38,899 bases of DNA from Bacteroidota bacterium (GTDB lineage Bacteria; Bacteroidota; Bacteroidia; Flavobacteriales; JADGDT01): the NCBI GenBank assembly GCA_039714315.1, contig JBDLJM010000011.1:1-38899 (forward strand), written 5' to 3'. Position numbers and translations under genes: made by a program. The notes beneath the pieces were generated by a model, which saw only the letters and a list, made by a program, of their open reading frames with translations, was not told where the DNA came from and did no database searches. Of the stretch, positions 15,054 to 36,992 are shown one piece after another (positions within the stretch are counted from its first letter, which is position 1; each line of letters starts with the position of its first letter).

Positions 15054-15128
15054 GGTGAAAGACCGGTCTCGAACCGGCGACCTCCGGAACCACAATCCGG
15101 CGCTCTAACCAACTGAGCTACAATCACC
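15054..15128 (-). tRNA. tRNA-His (GTG), copy 2 in transcription order
   Basis: The minus strand folds into a full tRNA with anticodon GTG in the loop TTGTGGT, GTTCGAGA-type T-arm and AGTTGGTTA D-loop. The encoded extra G at -1 pairs with C73, the identity feature of tRNA-His. CCA is not encoded. In the acceptor stem, positions 5-68 and 6-67 are both U opposite U, while all other pairs are good. The sequence is identical to the copy at 15190-15264. Confidence 0.95.
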
Positions 15129-15189: not shown

Positions 15190-15264
15190 GGTGAAAGACC
15201 GGTCTCGAACCGGCGACCTCCGGAACCACAATCCGGCGCTCTAACCAACTGAGCTACAATCACC
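15190..15264 (-). tRNA. tRNA-His (GTG), copy 1 in transcription order
   Basis: This copy is identical over its full length to the one at 15054-15128, with the same anticodon GTG, extra G-1 paired to C73 and the same two U-U oppositions in the acceptor stem. The two genes are 61 bp apart and share one likely promoter and one terminator. Confidence 0.95.
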
Positions 15265-35214: not shown

Positions 35215-35697
35215 ATGAAAGAGATAAAATTTTCGGCCAAGTTTAATGAATTTGAGGATAGAGAAGATCTTGATGTAGCTAATAAGAAGCTAATGGATCT
35301 GGCTATTGAGGCCAGAGACAGGTCATATTCTCCTTATTCAAAATTTAGTGTTGGCGCAGCAGTGCTTTTGGAAAACGGAGAAATTGTTACCGGTAATAAT
35401 CAGGAGAATGCTGCATATCCCTCTGGTATGTGTGCCGAAAGGGTGGCTATTTGGACGGCATCAGCTATGTATCCTGAAGTAAAAGTTTTGAAATTAGCCC
35501 TTTCAGGTAAGTCGAGGTTGAAAGTGGTAAATACACCTGTATCGCCTTGTGGAGCTTGCCGTCAGGTTTTAAGTGAGTATGAAGTAAAACAAGGGTCGGA
35601 TATAGAAATTTATTTTACGGGTGAATTTGGAAAGGTTATAAAAACCGATTCTGTAAAAGATCTTTTACCATTTAGTTTTGATGGTAGCTTGGTATAG
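35215..35697 (+). CDS. cdd: Cytidine deaminase
   Basis: This zinc enzyme converts cytidine or deoxycytidine to the uridine form in pyrimidine salvage. The 160-residue protein shows YSPYSKFSVGAAVL, the catalytic CAER (C73 zinc ligand, E75 proton shuttle) and the second zinc motif SPCGACRQ (C112, C115). The length fits the tetrameric class. It has its own promoter and is isolated from porV by a terminator. Proximity to pdhA is common in Flavobacteriia but has no obvious functional link. Confidence 0.95.
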   Translation: MKEIKFSAKFNEFEDREDLDVANKKLMDLAIEARDRSYSPYSKFSVGAAVLLENGEIVTGNNQENAAYPSGMCAERVAIWTASAMYPEVKVLKLALSGKSRLKVVNTPVSPCGACRQVLSEYEVKQGSDIEIYFTGEFGKVIKTDSVKDLLPFSFDGSLV

Positions 35698-35707
35698 ATA
35701 AGTGTAA

Positions 35708-35891
35708 TTTTTCATATGTTTAAATTTTACATTAAGGTTATATGGAATCCCAAAATTTAATAATGTCGGTTGGTATAAGCCACTTTTATGGGATTTCATA
35801 TGTATATAATTTAATGTTTTGGTCATATGGTATCCCCATAATATTCATGTTATTTGGTGTAAATGCTCGGTTTGCATGGGGATTTCATATT
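35708..35891. repeat. Tandem imperfect dyad repeats between cdd and pdhA
   Basis: Two hairpin-forming units follow one another. Unit 1 (35740-35801) has arms ATATGGAATCCCA and TGGGATTTCATAT, fully pairable in RNA if one G-U is allowed. Unit 2 (35825-35890) has arms ATATGGTATCCCCAT and ATGGGGATTTCATAT, with one G-U and one mismatch. Their loops share ATGT-NNN-TTGGT-N-TAA. The motif TTTCATAT occurs three times (around 35710, 35794 and 35883) with periods of about 84 and 89 bases, so a roughly 86-bp unit was duplicated. The block fills much of the gap upstream of pdhA. Function unknown. Confidence 0.8.
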
Positions 35892-35988
35892 ATATAAATT
35901 TATAATTAGGAATAAATAAGGGTGTTTCAATGTGGGAAGTTGAAATGTTACCGGGGCTTGGAAATATTTTTTTGGAAAAAAGAGAATT

Positions 35989-35996
35989 TAAATTTG
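35989..35996 (+). promoter_or_regulatory. TAnnTTTG-like box directly before pdhA
   Basis: TAAATTTG matches the -7 consensus and ends three bases before the pdhA ATG. The nearest TTTG upstream (35971-35974) is only 14 bases away, closer than usual. It is a weak call. Confidence 0.3.
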
Positions 35997-35999
35997 GGG

Positions 36000-36992
36000 A
36001 TGAAAAAAATAACAAAGGAGACATATCTCAGTTGGTATAGGGATATGTTGTTATGGAGAAAATTTGAGGATAAAGCTTCTGCGCTTTACATACAACAAAA
36101 AATCAGAGGATTTCTACACCTCTATAATGGTCAGGAAGCTGTACTTGCAGGTTGTTTACATGCGATGGAAATTGGTACAGATAAAATGATTACTGCATAT
36201 AGAAATCATGTTCAGCCAATAGGTTTGGGGGAAGATCCAAAAAAAATTATGGCGGAGATGCTGGGTAAGTCTACAGGAACATCTAAAGGTAACGGTGGAT
36301 CGATGCACATGTTTTCGAAGGAGAAGGGTTTTTATGGAGGACATGGTATTGTAGGTGGTCAGATTCCTCTTGGAGCCGGACTTGCTTTTGCTGATAAATA
36401 TTTTGACAGGAAAGCTGTTACCCTTACTTTTTTTGGAGATGGCGCTGCCCGTCAGGGAACTTTTCACGAAACATTAAATATGGCAATTAATTGGAAGTTG
36501 CCGGTAGTGTTTATTATTGAAAATAATCAGTATGCAATGGGTACTTCTGTTGCCCGAACATCTAACGTAACAGAGATGCACGAGATGGGTAATGGCTATA
36601 ACATGCCAAATGAATCTGTTGACGGTATGGATCCTGTTGCAGTAGCAAAATCTGTATCAAAAGCTATGGAGAGAGCCCGTAAAGGTGACGGACCTACGCT
36701 TTTGGAAATAAAAACTTATCGTTACAAAGGTCACTCAATGTCTGATGCGCAGCATTATAGAACTAAAGAGGAAGTAGCAGAGTATCAAAAACTGGATCCG
36801 ATTAATAAGGTACTTGAGGTAATCAGGGAAAATAAATATGCCACAGAAGAAGAAATTCATGCTATTAATGAATCTGTGAAAGATGAAATTAAGGAAATTG
36901 TGAAATTCGCAGAGGAATCACCGTTCCCTGATGATGGTGACCTTTATGCCGATGTGTACAAACAGGAAGATTATCCTTTCTTGATGAATTAA
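36000..36992 (+). CDS. pdhA: Pyruvate dehydrogenase E1 component, alpha subunit
   Basis: With its beta partner this thiamine-diphosphate enzyme decarboxylates pyruvate and passes the acetyl group to E2. The 330-residue protein has MITAYRNHVQPIG, the GGSMHMFSKEKGFYGGHGIVGGQIPLGAG segment and the ThDP-binding motif GDGAARQG...NN (about 147-178). It also has the phosphorylation-loop-like YRYKGHSMSDAQHYR. The ATG at 36000 is chosen because homologues start MKKITKE; an upstream GTG would add 26 unrelated residues. It is followed after 98 bp by pdhC. The E1 beta gene is not between them or elsewhere in the window, an arrangement known in Flavobacteriia. Confidence 0.95.
   Translation: MKKITKETYLSWYRDMLLWRKFEDKASALYIQQKIRGFLHLYNGQEAVLAGCLHAMEIGTDKMITAYRNHVQPIGLGEDPKKIMAEMLGKSTGTSKGNGGSMHMFSKEKGFYGGHGIVGGQIPLGAGLAFADKYFDRKAVTLTFFGDGAARQGTFHETLNMAINWKLPVVFIIENNQYAMGTSVARTSNVTEMHEMGNGYNMPNESVDGMDPVAVAKSVSKAMERARKGDGPTLLEIKTYRYKGHSMSDAQHYRTKEEVAEYQKLDPINKVLEVIRENKYATEEEIHAINESVKDEIKEIVKFAEESPFPDDGDLYADVYKQEDYPFLMN

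Follow-up and report, generated by a model that had tools for sequence, protein, structure and literature searches.

Small mobile palindromes usually lie between genes or inside reading frames. In transposition of the IS200/IS605 type, the element moves as a single strand, and its guide and cleavage sites pair with one another. The integron integrase acts on a folded strand, attC, with GTT as the crossover core. The REP2 repeats of Neisseria sit just upstream of start codons and supply the ribosome-binding region. Among dispersed repeats, Rickettsia palindromic elements (RPE) are small and structured, and excerpts of two reports place some of them in frame inside conserved proteins (PMC2229807, PMC10969869). 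REPs are given as 20-40 bp long, mostly with a GTAG or CGTC tag, in an excerpt of a further report (PMC3733652). MITECca01 in Cardinium, a member of the phylum considered here, appears in part of another (PMC9769881) as a MITE of a DDE-type insertion sequence, that is, a small non-autonomous dispersed repeat.

Like RPE, the element described below has a copy in frame, a single one in an M20 peptidase; unlike RPE, it lies mainly at start codons and has a fixed six-base border, and the two are set side by side by description, not by sequence. It shares with REP/RAYT systems a hairpin with a short fixed foot sequence, many copies, and a lack of inverted ends, but it is about 84-115 bp long, carries no GTAG or CGTC tag, and resides in a genome that has no Y1 protein. 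MITEs of the MITECca01 type have inverted ends and a parental insertion sequence, whereas the ends of this element agree only as ATG...CAT, with no parent found; positions 35500-36100 hold no inverted pair when searched with exact seeds of 9. Neisseria REP2 is likewise comparable by description rather than sequence, and it belongs to another phylum, one that uses Shine-Dalgarno pairing.

The window, meaning the whole stretch of 38,899 nucleotides that was analyzed, contains a two-unit tandem array of 179 bp at 35710-35888, between cdd and pdhA. Scores marked R1 come from a covariance model described below.

35215-35697, + strand: cdd, cytidine deaminase, upstream neighbor outside the element (PF00383, E 4.2e-19)
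35710-35799, + strand: element unit 1, TTTCAT to TTTCAT, three-C subtype (R1 63.8 bits, E 7.5e-9)
35710-35715, + strand: outer left border TTTCAT, the target side
35713-35744, + strand: helix H1 of unit 1, CATATG at 35713-35718 with TATATG at 35739-35744 (5/6 Watson-Crick pairs)
35740-35801, + strand: helix H2 of unit 1, a 62-base dyad extending two bases into unit 2 (fold z -3.45; covariation)
35794-35888, + strand: element unit 2, TTTCAT to TTTCAT (R1 105.3 bits, E 2.0e-17)
35794-35799, + strand: middle TTTCAT, common to units 1 and 2
35797-35829, + strand: helix H1 of unit 2, CATATG at 35797-35802, a 21-nt loop, CATATG at 35824-35829 (covariation, 69 copies)
35826-35891, + strand: helix H2 of unit 2, a 66-base dyad with an inner hairpin at 35857-35877 (fold z -2.12; covariation)
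35883-35888, + strand: outer right border TTTCAT, the element end
36000-36992, + strand: pdhA, pyruvate dehydrogenase E1 alpha, downstream neighbor outside the element (PF00676, E 9.8e-93), its probable ATG at 36000 chosen by a longest-frame rule

The initial annotation, made from the letters alone, had described two dyads of 62 and 66 bases with common arm sequences and repeats at steps of 84 and 89 bases, and re-mapping found these and their coordinates correct: ATATGG lies at 35740 and 35825, ATCCC at 35747 and 35832, TTTCATAT at 35710, 35794, and 35883, and GGGATTTCATAT at 35790 and 35879. Its dyads are the H2 helices; it had missed the second helix of each unit, H1 (CATNNN...NNNATG), and the role of TTTCAT as the unit border. 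On the + strand the 62-nt dyad folds at -18.5 kcal/mol (z -3.45), which none of 200 dinucleotide shuffles equaled or bettered, and the 66-nt dyad at -19.0 kcal/mol (z -2.12), equaled or bettered by 5/200. The - strand folds are poorer because G-U turns into A-C (-12.0 and -12.5 kcal/mol, z -1.72 and -2.38), and the complete 184-nt block has z -2.62 on the + strand and -1.62 on the - strand. Elsewhere in the window are two tRNA genes on the - strand, at 15054-15127 and 15190-15263 (58.5 bits each, 136 bases apart); tRNA duplication is their probable origin.

Is this array peculiar to the cdd-pdhA interval? BLAST finds 46 matches to the block in its own genome, an assembly of 3.4 Mb in 273 contigs. 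Covariance model R1, built from 15 copies with 17 pairs, the structure set by hand and window unit 2 among the copies, finds at least 59 units there at E<=0.01 among the best 150 candidates scored; five stretches found by BLAST only (L022, L025, L042, L044, and L046) lie outside the 59. With the same number of candidates scored, one genome of the same genus has at least 6 copies at E<=0.01, and a second, incomplete one gives no match. The repeat is more than chance, and the suggested search of this genome and its relatives yielded abundant copies, some of them in other genera. At least 90% identity over the body is shared by 24 pairs of copies, the best of them at 96-97% with unrelated flanks. 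The pair L036/L037, at 100% identity, was left out as evidence of movement and is probably a single array divided by the assembly; in several cases contig ends of this genome fall inside element copies. Head-to-tail arrays combine unlike units, with neighbors sharing TTTCAT. We consider it probable that the element is a dispersed mobile palindrome and that the tandem pair in the window has no special link to pdhA. One role offered in the initial annotation, a small non-autonomous repeat, is borne out by these many copies dispersed at unrelated sites.

The unit, of about 84-115 bp, comprises H1 and a branched H2 with TTTCAT at either border. Read along the model strand, the order is TTTCAT, H1, a short link, H2 with its inner hairpin, and TTTCAT. 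H1 consists of CATNNN, a loop that in most copies is about 20-26 nt long and ends in GGT, and NNNATG; H2 is exemplified by ATCCCC...GGGGAT and has ATGG at its foot. Subfamilies carry additional modules: a CCTGCCTG...CAGGCAGG hairpin inside the 3' arm of H1 (12/59 own-genome copies, counted by simple text match), another hairpin there that contains GCGTGACAGG (6/59), and TCTCGGC...GCCGAGA in H2 (14/59). The nested hairpins of the H1 3' arm, seen in L018, L021, L028, L033, L043, and others, look like REP-type palindromes inside the element.

The pairing of H1 was assessed on a MAFFT alignment blind to structure, comprising 69 regions (67 distinct) and leaving out copies with an H1 insert. In it, 94.3% of cells pair and four of the six pairs have changed on both sides; covariation is 0.273, compared with 0.082 in shuffles (0/500 as high) and at most 0.045 when the arms are slid. 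The stem types, listed with the 3' arm picked by best match, include CATATG/CATATG, CATCTG/CAGATG, CATCAG/CTGATG, CATGTG/CACATG, CATTTG/CAAATG, CATATA/TATATG, CATATC/GATATG, CATACG/CGTATG, and GATGTG/CACATC. Both-side changes affect 15/17 pairs among 92 model-aligned copies and, outside the own genome, 14/17 in 30 copies and 13/17 in 61 more, these three alignments being fitted to the structure and hence biased towards it. RNAalifold gave three pairs only on a first raw alignment because inserts and three-C units misalign there. Both helices covary strongly, so the pairing is under selection. The covariance models advised in the initial annotation could be built (R1, and R2 below), and its hint of selection on structure is upheld. 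As to the strand on which the structure is selected, counts of G-T versus A-C disagree: they favor the model strand on the model-fitted alignment A3 (73 versus 37) but not on the independent alignment A4 (8 versus 11).

Rfam 15 returned no match on the window elements or in 50 loci, at gathering and permissive thresholds, in keeping with the earlier remark that the block resembles no known riboswitch. One match that overlaps the L335 copy is at chance level (E 0.56, score 29.2 against a gathering score of 67). Flavo-1 RNA (RF01705) is present in two of the stretches, L228:1590-1679 (- strand) and L235:1279-1382 (+ strand), 473 and 165 bases from element copies and without overlap.

Where do the copies lie? 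TTTCAT is the reverse complement of ATGAAA, and the element meets genes precisely there. Once 10 internal units and 3 at contig ends are taken from the 59 own-genome matches, 46 outer left borders remain, and 28 of them start an opposite-strand frame of at least 70 codons (with ATG, once GTG). The other 18, the window included, are not gene starts; the window's left border, read on the - strand, has an ATGAAA that opens a frame of only 16 codons and so is no gene start. In the genus relative G001, 5/8 copies are at gene starts. By the same criterion 73/90 copies of other genera are at gene starts (27/30 and 46/60, the set of 60 coming from 61 matches with one cut at a stretch end omitted and four duplicate loci not entered), and some of the non-start copies adjoin another unit. 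As a baseline, the own genome offers 92 ATGAA[AGT] sites that are non-coding or at gene starts, and 23 of them are gene starts, a rough figure that rests on simple gene calling over those 92 sites and leaves out any lying no farther than 1 kb from a copy in the fetched stretches. The observed 28/46 lies above it (p = 3e-7), and start-codon copies therefore exceed what the target sequence alone would lead one to expect. The tagged starts are real: in alignments of the tagged frames with NCBIfam models, those for DnaN, AsnS, Ndk, YaaA, and thiolase begin at the first residue of the frame, and those for LpxB, dUTPase, and glutamate racemase within its first eight residues. The initial annotation had held that many scattered copies would indicate a passive repeat. 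A repeat it is; "passive" alone is too weak a word, because true start codons hold more than their share of the copies.

The tagged genes (e.g., dnaN, asnS, dut, and lpxB) are mutually unrelated, and an all-versus-all comparison of 510 frames from the fetched loci found no shared neighbor gene or regulon, the largest group joining one frame to four other loci. Nor are the tagged genes conserved between genera, dnaN in two genomes excepted. The dnaN start codon is tagged in two distant genomes, at L197 (contig C86 of the own genome) and L350 (G195), which may be through chance.

Evidence for insertion comes from sites that lack the element. The nearest named relative found by a PdhA search, Ichthyobacteriaceae MAG BB17 (L048; 89% protein identity), has cdd followed by pdhA in the same order as the window, with no element between them. 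The window's organism therefore probably belongs to that family or close to it. The empty site bears directly on the proposal that the block is a conserved pdhA-specific leader or attenuator, and the initial annotation's leader-RNA regulator of pyruvate dehydrogenase likewise finds no support. The location between cdd and pdhA and the + strand folds that beat shuffles speak for such a leader; opposed to it are the empty site in L048, at least 57 other matches in the own genome, at unrelated genes, a conserved orientation that points away from pdhA, and the lack of an Rfam match. A pdhA leader is very improbable, and dispersal together with the empty L048 site refutes it as a conserved leader.

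Ten tagged genes of the own genome have 18 orthologous copies in G001 and G002, and at none of these 18 starts does the model match; two weak hits (E 0.23 and 0.62) fall in other parts of the stretches. Most of these untagged copies have ATGAA at the same codon. The borders, furthermore, are not equivalent. Most copies have TTCAT at both, and the first base differs where the gene starts with ATGAAG or ATGAAT: the left border is then CTTCAT or ATTCAT, while the right border is TTTCAT (TGTCAT in L029). Read on the gene strand, the far end is ATGAAA in 83/90 copies of other genera, although the models include TTTCAT borders and border conservation among their matches is partly by construction. 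Since the left border varies with the gene and the right one stays the same or nearly so, the former is probably the target and the latter the element's own end; the gene keeps its start, and its native leader is displaced.

One copy has landed within a coding sequence. At L032:1421-1513 (C8:49020-49112 of the own genome) it lies in frame in an M20-family peptidase, leaving the 401-codon frame open and adding 29 codons. Alignment with the homologue 7uoi runs to residue 276, at the start of the element, and resumes at 350, with the query 26 residues longer in between; within the genus the search for this peptidase returned distant paralogues only.

Could the element be a regulatory leader in a general sense? 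An mRNA hairpin that sequesters the start codon and answers a signal might have spread because such control paid off. The copies do stop exactly at start codons in one orientation, the start codon lies within a covarying helix, and an A-rich stretch occupies -14 to -11. A shared cis-regulatory leader nevertheless sits poorly with tagged genes that are unrelated and, save for dnaN in two genomes, not conserved between genera, and with orthologues that do without the element. Arrays, copies off starts, and the one inside a frame also tell against it, as do the weaker folds on the gene-sense strand of the window and the absence of an Rfam match, and we regard this explanation as quite unlikely.

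A better account of these observations, and one we think likely to be correct, is that of a non-autonomous, site-specific mobile palindromic element whose usual target is ATGAA and which is widespread in the phylum. How might it move? The element may travel as a single strand folded such that the ATG of the H2 foot pairs with the CAT of the left border (through H1) and with that of the right border (through H2). That ATG would then act like a guide of the IS200/IS605 type, with the borders as cleavage sites. Elements derived from IS200/IS605 likewise have a subterminal hairpin, no inverted ends, and a short guide able to pair with both borders; a target retained on one side and the lack of a faithful duplication would be further likenesses. 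In the window, a pair of copies would have landed between cdd and pdhA, off any start codon.

The mechanism resembles IS200/IS605 single-strand transposition; we say that it would work like it, not that it is it, because the own genome has no Y1 transposase and the Y1 genes inspected in relatives have other hairpins. The own genome, 99% complete, gave 0 matches to PF01797, with controls positive in 5/14. Y1 or RAYT was therefore rejected as the mobilizer: Y1 is present in 17/19 other genomes, and those inspected have their own, different hairpins. Among 30 Y1 loci in relatives, the only nearby element matches are in L271 (E 0.02, at another gene's start) and L251 (weak, E 0.58). In L271 (G137) the RAYT-like Y1 gene, a frame at about 1413-2004, is flanked by its own palindromes, GCGAGCGTCACGCTCG, and the element lies 0.7 kb off.

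Four mobilizer families were searched for in the own genome, and reverse transcriptase (RVT_1) and serine recombinase are also absent, leaving tyrosine recombinases, with three proteins. The main alternative to an IS200/IS605-like mechanism is that a tyrosine recombinase, Xer or another integrase, acts on the folded strand and inserts circular units at TTTCAT, which would account for units arrayed head to tail and for borders in direct repeat. In its favor are the six-base border common to unlike units within an array, the structured nature of the units, and the standing of this family as the sole one present. The borders, however, are TTTCAT and not the GTT of integron attC, no link between the three proteins and the element family was found, no neighbor gene recurs, and one recombinase gene alone lies near a copy, a single one at 1.9 kb. 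We hold this alternative to be rather unlikely. The integrase near L024 was discarded as mobilizer, with one copy only. The gene at L166:3361-4608 (contig C101) encodes a 415-aa tyrosine recombinase 1.9 kb from one copy and is followed by a frame with a motif that we take to be Fic-like and by DDE transposase-like frames; the region looks like a genomic island.

What, then, would become of a gene whose leader is replaced by a mobile palindrome? The phylum does not rely on Shine-Dalgarno pairing. In Flavobacterium johnsoniae, according to an excerpt of one study, adenines at -3, -6, -12, and -13 and little structure favor initiation (PMC6847099). Of the gene-start copies in the own genome (n=28), 96% carry A at -13, 100% carry it at -12, and 25/28 have C at -3; those elsewhere (n=27) have a similar A-rich stretch and C at -3 in 22/27. 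The A-rich -13/-12 positions make for a plausible landing region, one with a poor -3 base and with the ATG within H1. Copies at start codons may thus survive by way of the A-rich stretch at about -14 to -11, usable as a ribosome-landing region. With C in place of the favorable A at -3 and the start codon in a weak hairpin, lowered or conditioned translation would be expected. Mean fold energies around starts differ little (-2.3 kcal/mol for 8 tagged sequences versus -1.4 kcal/mol for 14 orthologues). A bolder reading makes the element a phylum-wide mobile initiation cassette: an ATGAA inserter that brings its own A-rich loop and start-codon hairpin, places unrelated genes under shared translational control, and owes its movement to a class of enzyme not yet described. 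We offer this as a doubtful extension of the mobile-element reading.

The element ranges well beyond its own genome. With R1, 19 of 296 genomes of the order match at E<=0.001, representing 9/91 genera. Covariance model R2, built from 30 copies all outside the own genome, matches at least 25 of 395 phylum genomes at E<=1e-4, in 13/171 genera that include other orders and classes; the best 10 candidates per genome were scored, and G000, G078, and G195 each have at least 10. Ten copies fetched from G078 have a median identity of 95.8% between flanks at about 50%, and 9/10 lie at gene starts; the element is, or recently was, active in that genome as well. Searches of plasmids and phages returned no copy, only a 30-base chance hit on a Microvirga plasmid. 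Among 18 viral-contig stretches picked out by three pattern scans, L357 holds a convincing short copy and L358 a weak match only. The former, at L357:5559-5616 on a predicted virus contig, has a minimal H2 and sits where a 273-aa frame begins with ATGAAA. No description of the element was found in Rfam or among the matches listed in full-text searches of open-licence PMC papers, a body that does not include subscription papers.

Overall, this is a real, structured, and mobile element with an exact preference for start codons, and its link to pdhA is accidental. In practical terms, annotators will encounter it at gene starts, and several contigs of this assembly break inside it. It would also be a lead towards the mobilizing enzyme. 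If the initiation region is re-formed upon insertion, the element would give rise to changes in expression, those of essential genes included; and if the cassette reading is true, insertion at ATGAA does no lethal harm even in such genes, dnaN, asnS, and lpxB being among those tagged. A palindrome that lands on start codons and re-forms the initiation region in many genera would amount to a natural experiment on what ribosomes that do not rely on Shine-Dalgarno pairing need.
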